Source of the DNA: Asaia bogorensis
GTDB lineage: Bacteria > Pseudomonadota > Alphaproteobacteria > Acetobacterales > Acetobacteraceae
DNA length: 64,000 bases
Direction: 5' to 3'
Assembly (NCBI GenBank): GCA_945869965.1
Contig: CAMBRC010000007.1
Coordinates: 1 to 64,000 of the forward strand
Shown here in pieces: positions 44,886-56,154 of this stretch. The position numbers were made by a program, and so were the translations under genes. The notes under the pieces are model-generated. The model saw nothing but the letters and a program-made list of their open reading frames with translations, ran no database searches and was not told where the DNA came from. How positions within the stretch are numbered: the stretch's first letter is position 1; the number at the start of each line of letters is the position of its first letter.

Positions 44886-45893
44886 TCAGCCGATCCGAAC
44901 CGCCGAAGCCCGCCGCTCGCGCATCCCGTCCTCCATCGTCCGGGGATACCGCAACGGCAACACGGACACCGCATCCAGCCGCGCCTTCATCTCCCCCGGC
45001 AACCGCCAGCCCACCGCCTGCAACGTCTCCTCGATCTGGCCCTGGTTGCGCGCCCCGACAATCGCCGAAGTGACAAACCCCTGGTCCAGCACCCACCGCA
45101 ACGCCACCTGCGCCGGGCTGCGCCCCAGCTCGGCCGCCACCTCCAACAGGGTGGCCAGCACGTTGGTATGGTCGGGGTGGAAGAACTTCATCGGAAACGC
45201 CCAGCCCTCCTCACTGCGCGACCCCGTCGCCTGCGCCTGCCCCGGCTGGTACTTCCCGGACAGATACCCGCCCGCCAAAGGCGACCAAACCACCACGCCC
45301 AGCCCCTTCGTCTCACAGACCGGCACGATCTCCTGCTCGATATCCCGCACCACCAGGCTGTACTGCGGCTGATAGCACTCGAACCGCGCCAGCCCCTTGG
45401 TGTCCGAAATCCACAGCGCCTCCATCAGCCGCCACGCCTCATAGTTGCTGGTCGCCGCGTAACGGATCTTGCCTTGCCTCACCAGGTCATCGAGCGCCCG
45501 CAACGACTCCTCCAGCGGCGTCTGGTGGTCGACATGATGCAGATAGTAGATATCGAGATAATCCGTCCCCAACCGCCGCAAACTATCCTCGACCGCCTGC
45601 ATGATATGCGCCCGCGACGCCCCGGAATCGTTCGGCCCCGGCCCCATCGGATTGAACACCTTGCTCGCCAGAACCACCCGCCGCCGCCGTCCCTTCAGCA
45701 GCATGCCCAGGATGCTCTCGCTCTCGCCGCCATTGTAAGCGTTCGCCGTGTCGAGAAAGTTCACCCCGGCATCCAGACAGGCATCCAGGATCCGCCCGGC
45801 CTCCCCTTCATCAGCGCCATGACCGAAGGTCATCGTGCCGAGACAGATCTCGGACACCTTCAGCCCACTGCGCCCCATCCGGCGGTATTCCAT
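44886..45893 (-). CDS. aldo/keto reductase
   Basis: A 335-residue NADPH-dependent reductase. The start ATG 45893 follows GGAGAG. Catalytic tetrad positions are visible: Asp and Tyr in LDTANAYNGGESES, Lys in VVLASKVFNPMG and His in YLHHVDHQTPLEES. The C-terminal NADPH site is QGFVTSAIVGARNQGQIEET. It resembles oxidoreductases acting on sugars and aromatic carbonyls. It lies in a two-gene operon with the TauE gene and is divergent from the GMC array with 109 bp between. Confidence 0.94.
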   Translation of the reverse strand: MEYRRMGRSGLKVSEICLGTMTFGHGADEGEAGRILDACLDAGVNFLDTANAYNGGESESILGMLLKGRRRRVVLASKVFNPMGPGPNDSGASRAHIMQAVEDSLRRLGTDYLDIYYLHHVDHQTPLEESLRALDDLVRQGKIRYAATSNYEAWRLMEALWISDTKGLARFECYQPQYSLVVRDIEQEIVPVCETKGLGVVVWSPLAGGYLSGKYQPGQAQATGSRSEEGWAFPMKFFHPDHTNVLATLLEVAAELGRSPAQVALRWVLDQGFVTSAIVGARNQGQIEETLQAVGWRLPGEMKARLDAVSVLPLRYPRTMEDGMRERRASAVRIG

Positions 45894-46002
45894 GCGTCTC
45901 TCCATCCAATCGTAGCCCCAACCCTGCGACGCCCGGCGCCCGTTGACAACCACGCTCGGCCGGCTTCGACTGGCGCAGGAGCAGACGATCCGGGAGCGCC
46001 TG

Positions 46003-47601
46003 ATGGCCGACATGGCTGACGTTGTGATCATCGGCGCCGGCGCCTCTGGGGGCGCCGCCGCGTGGAGCCTGGCCGACACCAAGATGCGCATCGTCTGCCT
46101 GGAACAGGGCGACTGGATGAAGCCGGACGAATACCCAACCTCCGGCCGCGACTGGGAGGCCCGCCAGCTCGGTGATTTCGCCATCTCGCCCAACCGCCGG
46201 GCACGGCCGACCGACTACCCGATCAACGAAGACAACTCGCCAATCCTGGTCGGCAACTTCAACGGCGTCGGCGGCGGCACGGTGCTCTATGCCGGCCACT
46301 TTCCCCGCCTTCACCCGAGCGACTTCCGGGTGAAGTCGCTGGACGGCATCGCCGATGACTGGCCGATCGACTACGCCACCCTCGCCCCCTTCTACGACCA
46401 GAACGACCGCATCACCGGCGTCTCCGGCCTCGCCGGCGACCCCGCCTACCCACCCCACGAAGCCCAGATGCCCCCCCTCCCGCTCGGCCGCTCCGGCGAG
46501 ATCCTGGGGGCCGCGATCAACAAGCTCGGCTGGCACTGGTGGCCCAGCGACAGCGCCATCGCGTCCGAGGATTACGAGGGTCGTGCGCGCTGCATCAACC
46601 TCGCCCACTGCACCTCCGGCTGTGCCCAGGGAGCCAAGGCGAGCACCGACATCACCTATTGGCCCGCCGCCATCCGCGCGGGTGTCGAACTGCGCACCCG
46701 GGCGCGCGTCCGAGAAGTCACGGTCGGCGATGACGGCATGGCCAACGGCGTCATCTACTACGACACCGATGGCCGCGAATGCTTCATCGGCGCCCATATC
46801 GTCATCATGGCATGCAACGCCATCGGCACATCGCGCATCCTGCTGAACTCGAAATCGGCGAAGTTCCCGGACGGACTGGCCAATTCCAGCGGGCTGGTGG
46901 GCCGCAACCTGATGTTCCACCCTTATGCCTCGATCATGGGGTATTTCGACGAACCCACCGATGGCTGGCGCGGGCCGGGCAACACGATGTGGAGCCATCA
47001 GTTCTACGAGACCGACCCGACGCGGGGCTTTCTGCGCGGCTACATTTTCGAGATGGTGCGTGGCCAGAACCCGGTGATGTCCGCCATCCTCGGCATGGCT
47101 GGCGGCATGGTGCCATGGGGGGCCGATCACCATGCCGCCTATCGCAAACTCGCGGGCCGGCGCACCGGGATGGTGGCGATCTGCGAGGACCTGCCGGAGT
47201 TGCATAACCGGGTGACGCTCGATCCCGTGCTGACCGATGGCCACGGCATCCCCGCGCCGAAAATCGACTACACGCTGTCAGAAAATTCGCGGCGCATGCT
47301 TGACCATGCGGTGGCCCGCGGCACCGATATCCTCACGGCCGCCGGCGCGCGCGACATTCTCAGCGAAGCGCCGATCCGCACCAATGGCGTGCACATGATG
47401 GGCACCGCGCGAATGGGCCTGGACCCCGCTCGCTCGGTGGTCAACGAATGGGGCCGGGCGCATGACGTGAAGAACCTGTTCGTGGTCGATGGCTCGATCT
47501 TCGTCACCTCGGCGGGCGTGAACCCGACGCGGACGATCCAGGCGCTGTCGCTCTACATCAGCGACCAGATCAAGCAACGCTTGGCCACGCTGTTCGATTG
47601 A
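46003..47601 (+). CDS. GMC-family FAD dehydrogenase, array member 1
   Basis: A 532-residue flavoprotein. The N-terminal FAD motif is VVIIGAGASGGAAAWSLA, with NFNGVGGGTVLYAG next. RARCINLAHCTSGCAQGAK holds three Cys spaced C-x5-C-x3-C, as in FAD glucose dehydrogenase with a [3Fe-4S] cluster. The C-terminal catalytic part is GVHMMGTARMG...NEWGRAHDVKNLFVVDGSIF and GVNPTRTIQ, supplying the His/Asn pair. No signal peptide. It opens the tandem operon; GGAG precedes the ATG, and member 2 starts five bases after its stop. Confidence 0.95.
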   Translation: MADMADVVIIGAGASGGAAAWSLADTKMRIVCLEQGDWMKPDEYPTSGRDWEARQLGDFAISPNRRARPTDYPINEDNSPILVGNFNGVGGGTVLYAGHFPRLHPSDFRVKSLDGIADDWPIDYATLAPFYDQNDRITGVSGLAGDPAYPPHEAQMPPLPLGRSGEILGAAINKLGWHWWPSDSAIASEDYEGRARCINLAHCTSGCAQGAKASTDITYWPAAIRAGVELRTRARVREVTVGDDGMANGVIYYDTDGRECFIGAHIVIMACNAIGTSRILLNSKSAKFPDGLANSSGLVGRNLMFHPYASIMGYFDEPTDGWRGPGNTMWSHQFYETDPTRGFLRGYIFEMVRGQNPVMSAILGMAGGMVPWGADHHAAYRKLAGRRTGMVAICEDLPELHNRVTLDPVLTDGHGIPAPKIDYTLSENSRRMLDHAVARGTDILTAAGARDILSEAPIRTNGVHMMGTARMGLDPARSVVNEWGRAHDVKNLFVVDGSIFVTSAGVNPTRTIQALSLYISDQIKQRLATLFD

Positions 47602-47606
47602 GCGCG

Positions 47607-49205
47607 ATGAACGAGCCCGTCGACATCCTCATCATCGGTGCCGGCGCTTCCGGGGCGGCCTTTGCCTGGGCGATGACCGAGACGCGGATGCGCATCGTCT
47701 GCCTGGAACAGGGCGAATGGACCAAGCCCGCGGAGTTCCCGGCCACGCGGCGCGATGTCGAGGCGCGCAACGGCGGCGATTTCGCCATCAGCCCGAACCG
47801 GCGCCAGCGTGTGACCGACTATCCGATCCACGAGGACGGCTCCTGCATCAAGGTTGCGAACTTCAACGGCGTGGGCGGCGGCACGGTGCTGTACGGCGCA
47901 CATACGCCGCGTTTTCATCCGAGCGATTTCCGGGTGAAGTCGCTGGACGGCATCGCCGATGACTGGCCGATCGACTACGCCACGCTGGCGCCGTTCTACG
48001 ATATCAACGACCGGATGATGGGCGTCTCGGGCCTGGCCGGTGATCCCGCCTATCCCGGCAAGACCGTGCCGATGAAGCCGCTGCCGATGGGGCGGGCCAG
48101 CGAAACCCTTGGGCGCGGCTTCAACAAGCTGGGGTGGCATTGGTGGCCGAGCGACAGCACGATTGCGTCCGAGGAGTACGAGGGAAGGCCGGCCTGTATC
48201 AATCTCGGCCAGTGCACCGCCGGCTGCGCGCAGGGGGCGAAGGGCAGCACGGATATCACCTATTGGCCGCAGGCCATCCGAGCGGGAGTGGAGCTGCGCA
48301 CGCGCTGCCGGGTGCGGGAGATTACGCTGGGGCCGGACGGCATGGCGAATGGCACGATCTACTACGATGCCGACGGCCGGGAGGTTTTCCAGGCGGCGCA
48401 TATCGTGGTGATGGCGTGCAACGGCATCGGCACGCCGCGCATCCTGTTGAACTCGAAGTCGGAGCGGTTCCCGAACGGGCTGGCCAATTCGTCGGACCAG
48501 GTCGGGCGGAACCTGATGTTCCATCCCTATGTCAGCATCTTCGGCTATTTCGATCATGAACTGGATGGCGAGCGCGGGCCGGACAATGCCATGTGGAGCC
48601 ACGAGTTCTACGAGACCGACGAGAGCCGGGGGTTCAAGCGCGGCTTCATCTGGGAGTTCTCACGCGGCGAGGGCACGGCGGCGCTGGCGCTTGACGGCAC
48701 GGCCAATGGGTTGATCCCCTGGGGCACCGGGCATCATGCGGCGTATCGGCGCTATCACCGGCGCGGGACGGGATTGGGGGCGATCCTGGAGGACCTGCCG
48801 GAGCCGCATAATCGGGTGACGCTTGATCCCGCGCTGACGGATACTGACGGCATTCCGGCGCCGCGCATCGCCTATACGCTGAGCGAGAACAGCCGGCGGA
48901 TGATCGACTTCGCCATTGCGCGCGGCACCGAGGTGTTGACGGCGGCCGGGGCGTATCGGGTGGAATCCGAGGGGCCGCTGCCCTATGGCGGCTGGCACCT
49001 GATGGGCACCGCGCGCATGGGCACGAACCCGGCGACATCGGTGGTCAATGAATGGGGCCGGGCGCATGATGTGAAGAATCTGTTCATCGTCGACGGCTCG
49101 ATCTTTGTCACCTCGGCCGGGGTGAACCCGACCCCCACCATCCAGGCGCTGGCGCTGTATATCGCCGACCAGATAAAGCAGCGCCTGGACACCTTGTTCG
49201 AGTAG
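47607..49205 (+). CDS. GMC-family FAD dehydrogenase, array member 2
   Basis: A 532-residue paralogue: DILIIGAGASGAAFAWAM at the N-terminus, cluster Cys at 197, 203 and 207 in ACINLGQCTAGCAQGAK, and GGWHLMGTARMG with GVNPTPTIQ at the C-terminus. The ATG at 47607 is chosen over an upstream in-frame TTG (47598) because it matches the length of the other N-termini. It lies five bases after member 1, and no strong ribosome site is visible, so reinitiation is likely. The NRRQRVTDYPI segment differs from neighbours, which may affect substrate choice. Confidence 0.94.
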   Translation: MNEPVDILIIGAGASGAAFAWAMTETRMRIVCLEQGEWTKPAEFPATRRDVEARNGGDFAISPNRRQRVTDYPIHEDGSCIKVANFNGVGGGTVLYGAHTPRFHPSDFRVKSLDGIADDWPIDYATLAPFYDINDRMMGVSGLAGDPAYPGKTVPMKPLPMGRASETLGRGFNKLGWHWWPSDSTIASEEYEGRPACINLGQCTAGCAQGAKGSTDITYWPQAIRAGVELRTRCRVREITLGPDGMANGTIYYDADGREVFQAAHIVVMACNGIGTPRILLNSKSERFPNGLANSSDQVGRNLMFHPYVSIFGYFDHELDGERGPDNAMWSHEFYETDESRGFKRGFIWEFSRGEGTAALALDGTANGLIPWGTGHHAAYRRYHRRGTGLGAILEDLPEPHNRVTLDPALTDTDGIPAPRIAYTLSENSRRMIDFAIARGTEVLTAAGAYRVESEGPLPYGGWHLMGTARMGTNPATSVVNEWGRAHDVKNLFIVDGSIFVTSAGVNPTPTIQALALYIADQIKQRLDTLFE

Positions 49206-49215
49206 GAAACCGCAA

Positions 49216-50835
49216 GTGGCTGACGACATCGTCGACGTTCTCATCATCGGTGCCGGTGCCTCCGGGGCGGCCGTGGCCTGGAGCCTGGCCGACACCAAGA
49301 TGCGCATCGTCTGCCTGGAACAGGGCGGCTGGATGAAGCCCTCCGAGTATCCCTCGACCGGGCGGGACTGGGAGGCGCGGGCGATGGGGGACTACTCGAC
49401 CAGTCCGAACCGGCGTGGCCGACCTGAGGATTATCCGATCAACGACGATGCCTCACCGATCAAGGTGGTGAACTTCAACGGCGTCGGCGGCGGGACGGTG
49501 ATGTACACCGCGCATTGGCCGCGCCTGCATCCGTCCGATTTCCGCACCAAGACGCTGGACGGCGTCGGCGATGACTGGCCGGTCAGCTACGACATGCTGG
49601 AACCGTATTACAACCAGAACGACCGCATGATGGGGGTGTCCGGCATGGCTGGCGACCCCGCCTATCCGCCCAATGGCGTGGCACAGAGCAACCGGCGGCT
49701 GATGCCCGCTTTACCGCTGGGGCGGTCCGGGAAGATCTGGGGCGAGGCGATGAACAAGCTCGGCTGGCACTGGTGGCCATCGGACGCCACCATTGCCACC
49801 GAGGACTACGAGGGCCGCGCCAAGTGCATCAATCTCGGCCATTGCACGCCTGGGTGTGCGCAGGGGGCGAAGGGCAGCACGGACATCACCTATTGGCCGA
49901 TTGCCATTCGGGCGGGGGTGGAGCTGCGCACGCATTGCCGGGTCAAGCGGATCGTGACCGGCGAGGACGGCATGGCAACCGGAGTGGAGTATTTCGATAA
50001 GGACGGCGCGCTGCATTTCCAGGCGGCGCATGTCGTGGTGGTGGCATGCAACGGCATCGGCACCCCGCGGCTGTTGCTGAACTCGGCGAGCGAACGCCAT
50101 CCGAACGGGCTGGCCAATTCGTCGGACCAGGTGGGGCGGAACCTGATGTTCCATCCGTATATCCAGGTCTTCGGCTATATGGACGAGGAGGTGGACGGCA
50201 ATCGCGGGCCGCCGCTCAACCTGTGGAGCCACGAGTTCTACGAGACCGATCCGGCGCGGGATTTCAAGCGCGGCTACATGCTGCAGATCGGCCGCGGCAA
50301 CGGGACGGTGGCCGAGGCGATCGCCAGCCACGAGAATGGGCGCCTGCCCTGGGGGGCGGAGCACCATGCGCGGTTTCGCAAACTCGCCTATCGCAAGCTG
50401 AACCTTTCCGTGGTGGTGGACGATTTGCCGGAGGCGCATAACCGGGTGACGCTCGATCCCGTGCTGACCGACAGCAGCGGCATTCCCGCCCCGAAGGTGG
50501 AATACACCATCGGCGAGAACTCGCGGCGGATGATCGAGCACGGGGTGGAGCGCTGCAAGACGGTGCTGCGCACGGCGGGCGCGCGGGATATCGGGGTGCA
50601 GTACCCGATCGTCTTCGGTGGCTGGCACAATCTCGGCACCGCGCGCATGGGCGAGGACCCCGGGACCTCGGTGGTCAATGGCTGGGGGCGGGCGCATGAC
50701 GTGAAGAACCTGTTCATCGTCGACGGCTCGATCTTCGTCACCGCCGGCGCCGTGAACCCGACCTCAACCATCCAGGCCCTCGCGCTCTACATCGCCGACC
50801 AGATGAAGCAGCGCCTGGACAATTTGTTCGATTGA
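49216..50835 (+). CDS. GMC-family FAD dehydrogenase, array member 3
   Basis: A 539-residue paralogue starting at GTG after TAGGAAACC. It has VLIIGAGASGAAVAWSLA, NFNGVGGGTVMYTAHWPRLHP, KCINLGHCTPGCAQGAK (the three Cys) and GGWHNLGTARMG. It is slightly longer because of an insertion before the substrate-lid segment (PNGVAQSNRRLMPALPLG). It shares several signature segments with member 4 (VKRI, LNLSVVVDD), and these two look the most alike in the array. Confidence 0.95.
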   Translation: MADDIVDVLIIGAGASGAAVAWSLADTKMRIVCLEQGGWMKPSEYPSTGRDWEARAMGDYSTSPNRRGRPEDYPINDDASPIKVVNFNGVGGGTVMYTAHWPRLHPSDFRTKTLDGVGDDWPVSYDMLEPYYNQNDRMMGVSGMAGDPAYPPNGVAQSNRRLMPALPLGRSGKIWGEAMNKLGWHWWPSDATIATEDYEGRAKCINLGHCTPGCAQGAKGSTDITYWPIAIRAGVELRTHCRVKRIVTGEDGMATGVEYFDKDGALHFQAAHVVVVACNGIGTPRLLLNSASERHPNGLANSSDQVGRNLMFHPYIQVFGYMDEEVDGNRGPPLNLWSHEFYETDPARDFKRGYMLQIGRGNGTVAEAIASHENGRLPWGAEHHARFRKLAYRKLNLSVVVDDLPEAHNRVTLDPVLTDSSGIPAPKVEYTIGENSRRMIEHGVERCKTVLRTAGARDIGVQYPIVFGGWHNLGTARMGEDPGTSVVNGWGRAHDVKNLFIVDGSIFVTAGAVNPTSTIQALALYIADQMKQRLDNLFD

Positions 50836-50840
50836 GCACC

Positions 50841-52442
50841 ATGAGCGAGCCCGTCGACATCCTGATCATCGGCGCCGGCGCCTCGGGGGCGGCAGCTGCC
50901 TGGTCGCTGGCCGAGACGAAGATGCGTATCGTCTGTCTGGAACAGGGCGGCTGGGTGACGCCCGGCGACTACCCAGCCAATGGGCGGGACTGGGAGGCGC
51001 GGGCGACCGGCGATTTCTCACCCAGCCCGAACCGGCGCGGGCGGCCGGAGGATTATCCGGTCAATGACGATGCCTCGCCGATCAAGATCCTGAACTTCAA
51101 CGGCGTCGGCGGCGGGACGATCATGTACACCGCGCATTGGCCGCGGCTGCATCCGAGCGATTTCCGCACCCGCACACTGGATGGTGTCGGCGCGGACTGG
51201 CCAGTCAGCTATGCCCAGCTCACCCCGTTCTATGATCTCAACGACCGGATGATGGGCGTGTCCGGCCTGGCCGGCGATCCCGCCTATCCCGCGGGCAAGA
51301 CGCCGCAGATGCCGCCGCATGCGCTGGGCCGCTCGGGGGCGGTGTGGGGCGAGGCGTTCAACAAGTTGGGCTGGCATTGGTGGCCGTCGGACAACACGGC
51401 GGCGACCGAGGAATACGAGGGCCGGGCCAAGTGCATCAACCTCGCCCATTGCACCCCCGGCTGTGCCCAGGGGGCGAAGGCCAGCGTGGACATCACCTAT
51501 TGGCCCGCGGCGATCCGGGCGGGGGTGGAACTGCGGACCCATTGCCGGGTCAAGCGCATCACCACCGGCGATGACGGCCTAGCCACCGGCGCCGAGTATT
51601 TCGACAGCGACGGCAAGCTGTGCTTCCAGGCGGCGCATGTCGTCATCGTCGCCTGCAACGGCATCGGCACGCCCCGGCTGTTGCTCGCCTCGGCCAGCGA
51701 GCGGCACCCGAACGGGCTGGCCAATTCATCCGGCCAAGTCGGGCGCAACCTGATGCTGCATCCCTATGTCTCGGTCTACGGCTATGTCGACCAGGAGGTG
51801 GACGGCAATCGCGGCCCGCCGCTGTCGCTGTGGAGCCACGAGTTCTATGAGACCGACCCGGCGCGGGATTTCAAGCGTGGCTACATCTTCCAGATCGCCC
51901 GCGGCGCCGGACCAGTGCTGGAAGCGACCACCAGCTTCGAGCATGGCCGCCTACCCTGGGGGGCCGGGCATCACGCGGTGATGCGCAGGTTGCACTATCG
52001 CCGGCTGAACCTGTCGATTGTGGTTGATGACATTCCGGAGGCGCATAACCGGGTGACGCTCGATCCCGTGCTGACCGACAGCCATGGCATCGCGGCCCCG
52101 AAGGTCGAGTATGTCGTTGGCGAGAACAGCCGGCGGATGATTGCGCATGGCGTGGAGAAGGCCTCGCTGCTGCTCGCCACCGCGGGCGCGCGCGATATCT
52201 CGGTGGTGGACCCGATCCCGCTGTCGGGCTTTCACAACCTGGGCACCGCGCGCATGGGGGCGGACCCGACCCGCTCGGTGGTCAACGAATGGGGCCGGGC
52301 GCATGATGTGAAGAACCTGTTCGTCATCGACGGCAGCCTGTTCGTCACCGCCGGCGGGGTGAACCCGACCTCCACCATCCAGGCCCTGGCGCTCTATGTC
52401 GCGGATGCGATGAAGCAGCGCCTGGCCACTCTGTTCGATTGA
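50841..52442 (+). CDS. GMC-family FAD dehydrogenase, array member 4
   Basis: A 533-residue paralogue with DILIIGAGASGAAAAWSLA, GGGTIMYTAHWPRLHP, KCINLAHCTPGCAQGAK and GFHNLGTARMG. It starts five bases after member 3; an in-frame TTG (50832) overlaps the previous stop, but the ATG is preferred. Its tail DAMKQRLATLFD is shared by the array. Sequence features group it with member 3, suggesting a later duplication of that pair. Confidence 0.95.
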   Translation: MSEPVDILIIGAGASGAAAAWSLAETKMRIVCLEQGGWVTPGDYPANGRDWEARATGDFSPSPNRRGRPEDYPVNDDASPIKILNFNGVGGGTIMYTAHWPRLHPSDFRTRTLDGVGADWPVSYAQLTPFYDLNDRMMGVSGLAGDPAYPAGKTPQMPPHALGRSGAVWGEAFNKLGWHWWPSDNTAATEEYEGRAKCINLAHCTPGCAQGAKASVDITYWPAAIRAGVELRTHCRVKRITTGDDGLATGAEYFDSDGKLCFQAAHVVIVACNGIGTPRLLLASASERHPNGLANSSGQVGRNLMLHPYVSVYGYVDQEVDGNRGPPLSLWSHEFYETDPARDFKRGYIFQIARGAGPVLEATTSFEHGRLPWGAGHHAVMRRLHYRRLNLSIVVDDIPEAHNRVTLDPVLTDSHGIAAPKVEYVVGENSRRMIAHGVEKASLLLATAGARDISVVDPIPLSGFHNLGTARMGADPTRSVVNEWGRAHDVKNLFVIDGSLFVTAGGVNPTSTIQALALYVADAMKQRLATLFD

Positions 52443-52447
52443 GCACT

Positions 52448-54046
52448 ATGAGCGAACCCGTCGACATCCTGATCATCGGTTCCGGCGCCTCGGGGGCGGC
52501 GTTTGCCTGGTCGATGGCGGACACCAAGATGCGCATCGTCTGCCTGGAACAGGGCGACTGGGTGAAGCCGACCGACTATCCGGCCAATGGGCGGGATTGG
52601 GAGGCAAGGCGCTACGGCGATTCCGACATCATGGCCAATCGGCGCCAATTGCCAGCGGACTACCCGATCAATGACGCCAACTCGATCGTCAAGATCGCAA
52701 CGTACAACGCCGTCGGTGGCGGCACGGTGCATTACGCGGCCCATTTCCCGCGGCTGCATCCGAGCGACTTCCGGGTGAAGTCGCTGGACGGCGTGGCCGA
52801 TGACTGGCCGATCAACTATCGCACGCTGGAGCCGTTCTTTGCCGAGAACGACCAGATGATGGGGGTTGCCGGGCTGGCGGGTGACCCCGCCTATCCCGCC
52901 CACACGCCGCCCCTGCCGCCGGTGCCGCTCGGCCCCTCCGGCACGCGCGCGGCCGAGGCGTTGAACCGGCTGGGCTGGCATTGGTGGCCGTCGGACTCCG
53001 CCATCGCCACGGTGGAGCATGACGGCCGCGCAGCCTGTATCAATCTGGGCCATTGCCTGCCGGGCTGTGCCCAAGGGGCGAAGGGCAGCACCGACATCAC
53101 CTATTGGCCGCGGGCGATCCGCGCCGGCGTGGAGCTGCGCACCAACTGCCGTGTGCGTGAGATCACCGTGGGCGACGACGGGATGGCGACCGGCGCGATC
53201 TACTATGACCGCGACGGGCGCGAAGTCTTCCAGCCCGCCCATGTCGTGGTGATGGCCGCCAACGGGATCGGCACGCCACGGCTGCTGCTCAACTCGGTGT
53301 CCCAGGCGTTCCCCAATGGGCTCGCCAATTCATCGGGCCAGGTCGGGCGCAACCTGATGCTCCATCCCTGGCCGATCATCCATGGCTGGGTCGATGACAG
53401 GCTGGAGGGCCAGCGCGGTCCCGTCGTCTCGCTCTGGAGCAAGCAGTTCTACGAAACCGACCCAAACCGCGACTTCGTCCGTGGCTACATGCTGCAATTC
53501 GGCCGCGGACCGGGGCCCGTGGGCGAGGCGATGACCGGCGTGGAAGCCGGGCGCATACCCTGGGGGCCCGGCCACCACGCCGCGATGCGCCGGTTCAACA
53601 ACCACCGCTTCCATGTCGGCGTGGCCTGTGACGACCTGCCGGAGGCCCATAACCGGATCACGCTGGACCCCGTGTTGAAGGACGCGCATGGCATTCCCGC
53701 CCCGCGCATCGACTACACGATGTCCGAGAACACGCGGCGCATGATGGAACACGGCATCGCGCGGGCCACAGAGATCATGCGCGAAGCCGGTGCCCACACG
53801 ATTGCCGTCTCGCGCGAGGTGCTGAACTATCCCGGCCACCTGCTCGGCACCGCGCGCATGGTCCGCGATCCCTGGACCTCCGTGGTGAACGAATGGGGCC
53901 GCAGCCACGACGTGAAGAACCTGTTCATCATCGACGGCTCGGTCTTCGTCACCGGCGGCGGCGTGAACCCGACCTCGACCATCCAGGCCATAGCACTCTA
54001 CATTGCCGATCAGATGAAACAGCGGCTCGACACGCTGTTCGATTGA
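52448..54046 (+). CDS. GMC-family FAD dehydrogenase, array member 5
   Basis: A 532-residue paralogue. The FAD motif DILIIGSGASGAAFAWSMA has Ser in place of Ala, the cluster motif is ACINLGHCLPGCAQGAK, and the catalytic part is YPGHLLGTARMVRDP with GVNPTSTIQ. It differs most in the middle, with MLHPWPIIHGWVDDR and SKQFYET, and its C-terminal GTARM-V lacks the usual Gly, so it may act on a distinct substrate. Confidence 0.94.
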   Translation: MSEPVDILIIGSGASGAAFAWSMADTKMRIVCLEQGDWVKPTDYPANGRDWEARRYGDSDIMANRRQLPADYPINDANSIVKIATYNAVGGGTVHYAAHFPRLHPSDFRVKSLDGVADDWPINYRTLEPFFAENDQMMGVAGLAGDPAYPAHTPPLPPVPLGPSGTRAAEALNRLGWHWWPSDSAIATVEHDGRAACINLGHCLPGCAQGAKGSTDITYWPRAIRAGVELRTNCRVREITVGDDGMATGAIYYDRDGREVFQPAHVVVMAANGIGTPRLLLNSVSQAFPNGLANSSGQVGRNLMLHPWPIIHGWVDDRLEGQRGPVVSLWSKQFYETDPNRDFVRGYMLQFGRGPGPVGEAMTGVEAGRIPWGPGHHAAMRRFNNHRFHVGVACDDLPEAHNRITLDPVLKDAHGIPAPRIDYTMSENTRRMMEHGIARATEIMREAGAHTIAVSREVLNYPGHLLGTARMVRDPWTSVVNEWGRSHDVKNLFIIDGSVFVTGGGVNPTSTIQAIALYIADQMKQRLDTLFD

Positions 54047-54055
54047 GGAACACCG

Positions 54056-55666
54056 ATGCCCCAGCTTGACCCCGTCGACGTGCTCATCATCGGCTCCGGT
54101 GCTTCCGGCGCCGCCGTGGCCTGGAGCCTGGCCGACACCAAGATGCGAATCCTCTGCCTGGAACAGGGGGATTGGCAGAACCCGACCGACTATCCCTCGA
54201 ACGGCCGGGACTGGGAGGCGCGGCAGTTCAACGATATGGCGACCTCGCCGAACCGCCGCCAGCTCTGGTCGGACTATCCGGTCAACGACGACAACTCGCC
54301 GATCAAGGTGCTGAACTTCAATGCCGTCGGCGGCAGCACCATCCTGTATGCGGCGCATTACCCGCGGCTGCATCCGTCCGACTTCAAGGTGAAGTCGCTG
54401 GACGGCGTGGCCGATGACTGGCCGGTGGACTACCACCAGCTCGAACCCTTCTTCGCCGAGAATGACCGCATGACGGGCGTGTCCGGCATGACGGGCGATC
54501 CCGCCTATCCGCCCCAGAAAACGCCGCCGATGGAGCCGCTGCCGATGGGCCGCTCCGGGCGCATGCTGGGCGAGGCGATGAACCGGCTGGGCTGGCACTG
54601 GTGGCCCAGCGATTGCGCAGTGACCACGCGGGAATACGAGGGCCGCGCGCCCTGCATCAACCTCGGCCACTGCATCGCCGGCTGTGCCCAGGGCGCCAAG
54701 GCCAGCACCGACATCACCTATTGGCCCGCCGCGATCCGCGCCGGCGTCGAACTGCGCACCCGGGCGCGCGTGCGCGAGATCACCGTGGACCCTGCCACCG
54801 GCATGGCCAATGGCGTGATCTACTATGACCGCGACGGGGTGGAGCAGTTCCAGCCCGCCCATGTCGTGGTGGTCGCCGCCAACGGCATCGGCACGCCGCG
54901 GCTGTTGCTGAACTCGAAATCGGAGCGCTTCCCGAACGGCCTGGCCAATTCCTCCGGGCTCGTCGGCAAGAACCTGATGTTCCATCCCTATGCCAGCATC
55001 TGGGGCTATTTCAACGAGGAGACGGACGGCAATCGCGGCCCACCGCTGTCGCTTTGGAGCCACGAATTCTACGAGTCCGATCCGTCGCGAGGTTTCGTGC
55101 GTGGCTATTCCTGGCAGTTCGGCCGCGGCGTCGGCGCGATCCTGGAGGCGCAACAATCAATGGCCTCCGGCCGCCTGCCCTGGGGCGCCGAACACCACGC
55201 CGTATATCGGAAACTCTACAACCGCCGCATGAACATCGCCGCCATCTGCGAGGACCTGCCGGAGGAGCATAACCGCGTCACCCTCGATCCCGTGCTGAAG
55301 GACGCCCACGGCATCCCCGCCCCGAAGATCGACTACACGATCAGCGAAAACTCCAACCGCATGCTCAACCACGCCATCGCGCGGGCCACGGAGGCGCTGC
55401 GCGAAGCCGGCGCGTACGACATCGGCGTCGAGCGCCCGATCCTGAACGGCGGCTGGCACCTGCTCGGCACCGCCCGCATGGGCACCGACCCCACCCGCTC
55501 CGTCGTCAACGATTGGGGCCGCACCCATGACGTGAAGAACCTGTTCATCGTCGACGGCTCGATCTTCACCACCTCCGGCGGCGTCAACCCAACCTCCACC
55601 ATCCAGGCCCTGGCACTCTACATCGCCGATCAGATGAAGCAGCGCCTCGCCACTTTGTTCGATTGA
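54056..55666 (+). CDS. GMC-family FAD dehydrogenase, array member 6
   Basis: A 536-residue paralogue with GAGGAA before the ATG. It has DVLIIGSGASGAAVAWSLA, NFNAVGGSTILYAAHYPRLHP, PCINLGHCIAGCAQGAK and GGWHLLGTARMGTDPTRSVVNDWGR. It is the last dehydrogenase and is followed after 11 bp by the small-subunit gene. All six share a C-terminal QRL(D/A)TLF ending except for small variations. Confidence 0.95.
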   Translation: MPQLDPVDVLIIGSGASGAAVAWSLADTKMRILCLEQGDWQNPTDYPSNGRDWEARQFNDMATSPNRRQLWSDYPVNDDNSPIKVLNFNAVGGSTILYAAHYPRLHPSDFKVKSLDGVADDWPVDYHQLEPFFAENDRMTGVSGMTGDPAYPPQKTPPMEPLPMGRSGRMLGEAMNRLGWHWWPSDCAVTTREYEGRAPCINLGHCIAGCAQGAKASTDITYWPAAIRAGVELRTRARVREITVDPATGMANGVIYYDRDGVEQFQPAHVVVVAANGIGTPRLLLNSKSERFPNGLANSSGLVGKNLMFHPYASIWGYFNEETDGNRGPPLSLWSHEFYESDPSRGFVRGYSWQFGRGVGAILEAQQSMASGRLPWGAEHHAVYRKLYNRRMNIAAICEDLPEEHNRVTLDPVLKDAHGIPAPKIDYTISENSNRMLNHAIARATEALREAGAYDIGVERPILNGGWHLLGTARMGTDPTRSVVNDWGRTHDVKNLFIVDGSIFTTSGGVNPTSTIQALALYIADQMKQRLATLFD

Positions 55667-55677
55667 GGATCAGCCCG

Positions 55678-56154
55678 ATGTCCAACACCGTCTCCGCCCC
55701 GAACCCCGCCTGGGGCGACCCCAATCTCACCGACGCGGAAAAGCGCACCCTGGCCGCCATGTGCGCCCGCATGATCCCGGCCAGCGCCGAATTCAAAGTG
55801 CCTGGCGCCGATGACACGCTGATCCAGGCCGATATCGCCAAGAGCCTGGGCCGCGACGCCACAGCCGTGCACAACGCCCTGGCCAAACTCGAAACCCTCG
55901 CCGGCGGCAGCCTCGCCGACCTGCCCATCGACAAACAGGAAGAGGTCTGCGCCACCCTGCGCACGGAGGGCGGCATGGACCTCACCCTGCTCACCCGCAT
56001 CATCCTGCAATGCTACTACCGCGACGACCGCGTGATGATCTCGCTCGGCATGGAACCGCGGCCGCCGTTTCCCAAGGGGCATGTGTTGCCGCAGGGGGAC
56101 TGGTCACTGCTTGATCCCGTGCGGGCGCGAGGGAAGATCTGGCGGGACGCGTAA
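55678..56154 (+). CDS. gluconate 2-dehydrogenase subunit 3-like small subunit
   Basis: A 158-residue protein of the subunit-3 type. TDAEKRTLAAMCARMIPA is near the N-terminus, and RDDRVMISLGMEPRPPFPKG with VLPQGDWSLLDPVRARGKIWRDA form the C-terminal portion. In gluconate and fructose dehydrogenases this subunit carries a twin-arginine signal and escorts the FAD subunit across the membrane. Here the N-terminus (SNTVSAPNPAWGDPN) has no Tat motif, so a cytoplasmic role is likely. ATG follows GAGGATCAGC. It closes the operon. Confidence 0.85.
   Translation: MSNTVSAPNPAWGDPNLTDAEKRTLAAMCARMIPASAEFKVPGADDTLIQADIAKSLGRDATAVHNALAKLETLAGGSLADLPIDKQEEVCATLRTEGGMDLTLLTRIILQCYYRDDRVMISLGMEPRPPFPKGHVLPQGDWSLLDPVRARGKIWRDA

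Follow-up and report, generated by a model that had tools for sequence, protein, structure and literature searches.

A tandem array of six FAD/[3Fe-4S] dehydrogenase genes and one small gene in Asaia bogorensis that may encode separate catalytic subunits with a common partner

The enzymes nearest to those considered here are the flavin adenine dinucleotide (FAD) glucose dehydrogenase of Burkholderia cepacia (BcGDH) and the fructose dehydrogenase of Gluconobacter. Gluconobacter fructose dehydrogenase has one large subunit. The titles of its Protein Data Bank (PDB) entries (7w2j and 8jej) describe it as membrane-bound, and fructose dehydrogenase has a haem c electron-transfer subunit (PMC9727119). 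BcGDH (PDB 6a2u) combines a catalytic alpha subunit with a small gamma subunit bearing a twin-arginine translocation (Tat) signal and with a three-haem cytochrome c. In PMC6719666, Cys212, Cys218 and Cys222 are given as ligands of the [3Fe-4S] cluster, Cys213 as the residue forming the alpha-gamma disulfide (these cysteines are said there not to be conserved), His105 as the residue deemed to be covalently bonded to FAD, His476 and Asn519 as the likely catalytic pair, and Asn475 and Asn474 as proposed glucose-recognition residues; the C-terminal loop of the gamma subunit sits beside the cluster. BcGDH-type enzymes serve in direct-electron-transfer glucose sensing (PMC9727119). Here we describe a locus of Asaia bogorensis (GenBank assembly GCA_945869965.1, contig CAMBRC010000007.1) in which six genes of this type of the GMC family, g1 to g6, precede one small gene. 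The window, i.e. the whole stretch of DNA analysed, spans positions 1 to 64,000 of the forward strand of this contig. With a probability of roughly 55%, the products of the array are six catalytic subunits that work separately, probably in the cytoplasm and on different substrates, each paired with one and the same small subunit. Among the open-licence papers listed by literature searches, none on such arrays was found.

g1: 46003-47601, plus strand; 532 residues; GMC FAD/[3Fe-4S] dehydrogenase catalytic subunit (Pfam, motifs, PDB match 6a2u at 5.1e-55)
g2: 47607-49205, plus strand; 532 residues; sister of g1 in the tree (Pfam, motifs)
g3: 49216-50835, plus strand; 539 residues, GTG start; sister of g4 (Pfam, motifs)
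g4: 50841-52442, plus strand; 533 residues; GMC paralogue (Pfam, tree, motifs)
g5: 52448-54046, plus strand; 532 residues; GMC paralogue with His at the BcGDH His105 position (Pfam, motifs)
g6: 54056-55666, plus strand; 536 residues; GMC paralogue (Pfam, PDB matches, orthologs, substitution rates)
Small gene: 55678-56154, plus strand; 158 residues; putative distant homologue of subunit 3 of gluconate dehydrogenase

A sequence-only reading of the window had described six full-length GMC genes on the plus strand followed at the 3' side by a single small gene; the list of open reading frames and Pfam confirmed the coordinates, the sizes and the spacing of the GMC genes, as well as the position of the small gene. 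With the starts as called, the gaps from g1 through to the small gene are 5, 10, 5, 5, 9, and 11 bp, and an alternative in-frame TTG start of the small gene at 55663 would give a protein of 163 residues. All six GMC proteins pass both GMC cut-offs of Pfam, and their pairwise identities are 64-79%.

The catalytic subunits belong to the FAD-glucose-dehydrogenase/fructose-dehydrogenase clade, as indicated by sequence for g1, g5, and g6 and by fold for g6. The closest solved sequences of these three proteins are BcGDH (6a2u_B) and the large subunits of fructose dehydrogenase. The predicted structure of g6, with a predicted local distance difference test score (pLDDT) of 84, has fructose dehydrogenase or BcGDH as all of its first nine fold matches, with template modelling (TM) scores of 0.83-0.86 (0.84-0.86 for the Gluconobacter enzyme, which also shares the motifs). 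The next matches, C-glycoside and pyranose oxidases, share the GMC fold at lower similarity (TM ~0.64). In agreement with the sequence-only reading, the FAD motif, C-x5-C-x3-C, the catalytic His and NPTxTI are present in all six proteins. The three cysteines (Cys200, Cys206 and Cys210 in g6) align with the cluster ligands of BcGDH and are predicted [3Fe-4S] ligands in every copy, and equivalents of the BcGDH His/Asn catalytic pair are likewise found in 6/6. Unlike BcGDH, none of the six has a cysteine at the Cys213 position, and the FAD-linking position is occupied by His in g5 only; g1, g2, g3, g4, and g6 have Leu, Leu, Met, Met, and Leu, respectively. All 10 distinct orthologs of g5 have this His, and it is missing from each of the 153 other motif-bearing sequences (duplicates included); the motif was absent from seven entries, five of which are fragments or unrelated.

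The residues around the catalytic His vary from copy to copy and are largely constant among the orthologs of each. The flanks are GV-H-M in g1 (4/4 sequences), GW-H-L in g2 (5/5), GW-H-N in g3 (6/6), PG-H-L in g5 (10/10) and GW-H-L in g6 (11/11), while g4 is split between GF-H-N (5/10, including the g4 of the window) and GW-H-N (5/10). Among other relatives GW-H-L (81/103) and PG-H-L (18/103) were seen. Since the two residues preceding the His correspond to Asn475 and Asn474 of BcGDH, i.e. its proposed glucose-recognition positions, their variation among the copies suggests that substrates differ for at least g1, g3/g4, g5, and g2/g6. In addition, 15 positions are invariant inside every group and show at least three residues across groups, a count made without a null model.

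The copies are also old. In a FastTree tree of 72 proteins, g1, g2, g4, g5, and g6 each form an ortholog clade over the array-bearing loci (support 0.998-1.0), and the g3 sequences are adjacent with a node support of 0.0. The phylogeny by which the sequence-only reading had proposed to examine the six proteins resolved five of them into separate clades. Sister pairs are g1/g2 (support 0.953) and g3/g4 (support 1.0), and g5 clusters with single-copy genes of other genera (support 0.989). Recent tandem amplification was rejected on the basis of these clades (five of six supported) and of the identities, 82-98% between orthologs versus 64-79% between paralogues. The orthologs of g6 are 90-98% identical in L045-L051 and L081-L091 and adjoin the small gene at each locus. 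Pairwise ratios of nonsynonymous to synonymous substitution rates (dN/dS) between orthologs are 0.04-0.23 for the six GMC genes, with g6 as the most constrained paralogue (0.04-0.10), and 0.06-0.34 for the small gene. Because of the ortholog clades and the low dN/dS values, the copies are considered old, distinct and maintained. Decay was rejected by dN/dS as well, and the view that no copy looks decayed holds, with a residual doubt over the g5 of this genome that is described below.

The small gene was found in 34 of 249 genomes of the family, and 34 loci (L045-L078) were fetched. The order g1 to g6 plus small gene is complete in three further genus members (L045, L048, and L049), which answers a check across genomes proposed from the sequence alone; an assembly artefact was rejected by the identical order in separate genomes. 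The arrays of L046 and L047 are interrupted by a contig end, L050 and L051 have three GMC genes (g4-g5-g6), and the 34 loci include six with two GMC genes and 21 with one. In five of the six loci with two GMC genes (L054, L056, L059, L063, and L067 of the same family), the small gene is sandwiched by the two. A separate scan of one genome per species (84,980 species) gave 520 relatives, and the best 80 were counted; this set overlaps with the 34 loci (e.g. L045 = L085), some of its loci are cut by contig ends, and matches below 50% identity or on the opposite strand were excluded. Among these best 80 of 520 loci, a same-strand GMC gene lies near the small gene in 78, mostly adjacent, and 62 have one GMC gene on that strand. 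L081 has five GMC genes (g2-g6). In L090, g4 adjoins g6 with g5 absent between them, and the contig starts 630 bp upstream of g4, giving at least two GMC genes. L091 and a Dankookia rubra isolate (L092) have one GMC gene and the small gene, the GMC gene matching g6 best with 93% and 76% identity, respectively.

Within the genus, a g1 ortholog is present in eight of nine genomes; the ninth, G250 (68% complete), corresponds by coordinates to the L081 genome. Of the eight, four have the whole array on a single contig and four have it distributed over two contigs; these split arrays are consistent with six GMC genes. Two genus members, G033 and G119, carry an extra separate pair of a GMC and a small gene (L075 and L076), which is not found in the A. 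bogorensis genome. Copy-number surveys of the class (13/385) and the family (48/397) score up to three candidates per genome and so indicate presence, not array size. From the series of array sizes among relatives, we infer that the array grew stepwise from an ancestor with one catalytic and one small gene, its fixed end being g6 plus the small gene.

The single-copy pairs of Alphaproteobacteria (e.g. L040 of Neorhizobium and L092 of Dankookia) consist of the same two families in adjacent genes, and their small protein is equally short at the N-terminus. They differ in having one catalytic gene, and several lie within sugar catabolic gene runs. Nine records of relatives were examined, taken from the 20 listed of 740. 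At all six annotated loci among them that belong to near relatives on plasmids (54-68% identity to g6), a mandelate-racemase-type gene lies in the same gene run; sugar ATP-binding cassette transporter and aldehyde dehydrogenase genes are present at five of the six, and genes for 2-dehydro-3-deoxygalactonokinase and 2-dehydro-3-deoxy-6-phosphogalactonate aldolase at one. The unannotated relative L042 is outside this six-locus count. No mandelate-racemase-type dehydratase gene was found beside the more distant relatives L163 and L164.

The sequence-only reading had called the small gene subunit-3-like, and this is weakly supported by sequence. In hhalign, the small family and 25 canonical proteins of PF13618 (Gluconate_2-dh3) matched with 66%, the small family and a set of four intermediates with 98%, and that set and the canonical proteins with 93%, versus 0.1-1.1% for 20 column-shuffled controls. 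L044, a relative of the small protein, passes the PF13618 cut-off. The C-terminal part of the small protein is conserved as CYYRDDRV...PFPKG...GDWSLLDPVRAR..WR, and the C-terminal half holds 19 of the 25 invariant columns. When the protein was modelled as a single chain, residues 131-158 were predicted with low confidence (mean pLDDT 51-60), as would be expected if this stretch takes its fold on a partner. The N-terminal side is short: in 118/120 small-family proteins (duplicates included), 16-44 residues (median 23) lie ahead of the IP anchor, compared with 55-96 in 23 of 25 canonical PF13618 proteins, the other two values (22 and 260) appearing to be mis-anchored. A twin Arg was found in 25/25 canonical proteins by a lenient search that used the open frame and picked the start to include the pair. 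Judged from its sequence, the small protein is without room for a Tat signal, and the pairs are for this reason predicted to remain in the cytoplasm.

No open reading frame of at least 80 codons with two CXXCH motifs was found in the window or in L080, which is the whole contig. Three open reading frames with one CXXCH are present in the window, all at least 25 kb from the array. The absence of room for Tat and of a multihaem gene on the contig are further differences from BcGDH, besides the six catalytic genes. The analogy to gluconate and fructose dehydrogenases drawn from the sequence alone thus stands for the catalytic part, which is in the clade described above, and is not supported for a periplasmic, cytochrome-c-coupled enzyme, given no Tat room, no multihaem open reading frame, and no FAD-linking His in five of six copies.

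Taken together, we propose that each catalytic subunit would pair with the common small subunit, whose conserved C-terminal part would pack beside the [3Fe-4S] cluster like the gamma subunit of BcGDH. The cytoplasmic pairs would oxidise different sugar-like alcohols, and electrons would pass from FAD to the [3Fe-4S] cluster and then to an acceptor other than a cytochrome c encoded alongside.

Several observations weigh against this proposal. The small protein scores 18.7-18.8 bits against PF13618, below the curated cut-off of 23.4, weak helix-turn-helix matches are also seen for it in the Pfam search, neither it nor its relative L044 has a convincing PDB sequence match, and its structural model has no convincing PDB fold match, including the small chains of BcGDH and fructose dehydrogenase, although the absence of these chains from the match lists proves nothing. 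A stricter Tat screen, requiring a twin Arg and a hydrophobic stretch, was positive for 11/120 proteins of the small family and for 23/25 canonical proteins; in those of the 11 that were inspected, the Arg pair is located immediately ahead of helix 1, within it or further on, and they were judged false. Because g2 and g6 have identical His-flanking residues, the substrate need not differ across all six copies. In the g5 of this genome only, a conserved glycine has been lost: it has HLLGTARMVRDPW (RMVRDPW, 53837-53881) where nine other aligned orthologs have RMG, with its His and Asn intact. Finally, none of the sugar genes seen beside the single-copy relatives adjoin the array. If the small protein were unrelated to subunit 3, it could be some other partner or a regulator, in line with the sub-threshold Pfam score (7 of 32 small-family members match PF13618 at E <= 0.05) and the missing fold match; the hhalign bridge through relatives that stand beside related GMC genes, together with the cut-off passed by L044, makes this most improbable.

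A possible alternative, on which we place limited weight, is that the small protein is a transient folding or cluster-protection factor with many clients and that the catalytic proteins act alone. Loci with a single small gene for two to six GMC genes recur, some genomes (e.g. G020 and G208) have an unlinked GMC copy yet a single small gene, and in this enzyme group the small subunit is reported to be required if the catalytic subunit is to be functionally expressed (PMC6719666). The same-strand GMC neighbour in nearly all of the best 80 small-gene loci speaks against this alternative, and the strong conservation of the C-terminal part suggests a lasting interface. The sequence-only reading had favoured one modular dehydrogenase complex whose substrate is changed by swapping catalytic subunits on the small subunit. 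In favour of such a complex are the close spacing of the six catalytic genes and their one small gene, and the retention in all six groups of RGP from the contact loop of BcGDH (333-342). This idea was not borne out and we consider it unlikely: the same data fit six separate pairs, for which switching is superfluous, there is no gene between the GMC genes and thus no local switch to be seen, no cytochrome gene accompanies the array, and two relatives have hairpin-bearing spacers in their arrays. A redundant dosage array, in which copies of the same activity are retained for more enzyme, would be in keeping with the common fold and motifs and with the likeness of g2 and g6 beside the catalytic His; the old divergence of the copies, and the residues that are constant by group in the active site and at the FAD-linking position, render it rather improbable.

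The spacers just mentioned bear on transcription. In the window, the array could plausibly be transcribed as one unit. Of the other complete arrays, which number three, two (L045/L085 and L048/L086) have three spacers each, of 120-244 bp, separating GMC genes, and the four that were folded form strong hairpins (z -5.4 to -7.4). Because of these hairpin-bearing long spacers in two relatives, one transcript is not general, and transcription of the array may differ between species. Across five arrays that were compared, 11-12 bp separate g6 from the small gene. Inverted repeats with CTTNGCGNCTTGGCGG arms lie between GMC genes at L045:9063-9182, L045:10791-10920, L048:10627-10755 and L048:12361-12505. 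Genome-wide, the hairpin pattern occurs 15+15 times in G033, 16+16 times in G171, once in the A. bogorensis genome and not at all in G119, and the reversed-pattern control gave no matches.

Upstream of the array are the following features.

Intergenic stretch: 45906-46002, no strand; between the divergent 44886-45905 gene and g1
Presumed aldo/keto reductase gene: 44886-45905, minus strand; divergent neighbour of g1, with no part claimed in the mechanism

The array promoter likely lies in 45906-46002; a sigma-70 scan of this region, with other promoter types outside its scope, gave zero sites (1.9 expected by chance). The divergent gene, which we take from its sequence to encode an aldo/keto reductase, is conserved at 89-91% in L045, L048, and L049. 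In L081 it was not found within 1.5 kb ahead of g2; by eye, the permease in that stretch is the one located beyond this gene in the window. The other neighbours are presumably a permease, an aminotransferase and a major facilitator superfamily transporter. In the whole assembly (4.7 Mb in 209 contigs, 97% complete; the window lies at G000:C7), GMC_oxred_C was matched at 15 places, six of them in the array. Beyond the array, the single near-full-length aligner of g6 is a 45% relative on contig C87 (L079:6962-8554), which carries C-x5-C-x3-C and has no small-gene copy near it. This 97% complete assembly yielded neither a further copy of the small gene nor a PF13618 match at E <= 0.001, unlike 42 of 80 family genomes in which the PF13618 cut-off was passed.

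If six separate pairs are formed, the array probably widens the range of compounds oxidised inside the cell. Tentatively, it might represent a cytoplasmic FAD/[3Fe-4S] branch whose six catalytic subunits, with differing substrate and flavin chemistry (covalent in g5, non-covalent in the other five), would share one small subunit that lacks a signal and would use an acceptor other than cytochrome c. With neither an export signal nor an adjacent cytochrome gene, the locus raises the question of the electron acceptor of the [3Fe-4S] cluster. A natural set of six subunits with 64-79% identity and a constant partner would help to map the residues that determine which substrate is used, how the flavin is linked and how the partner is bound.

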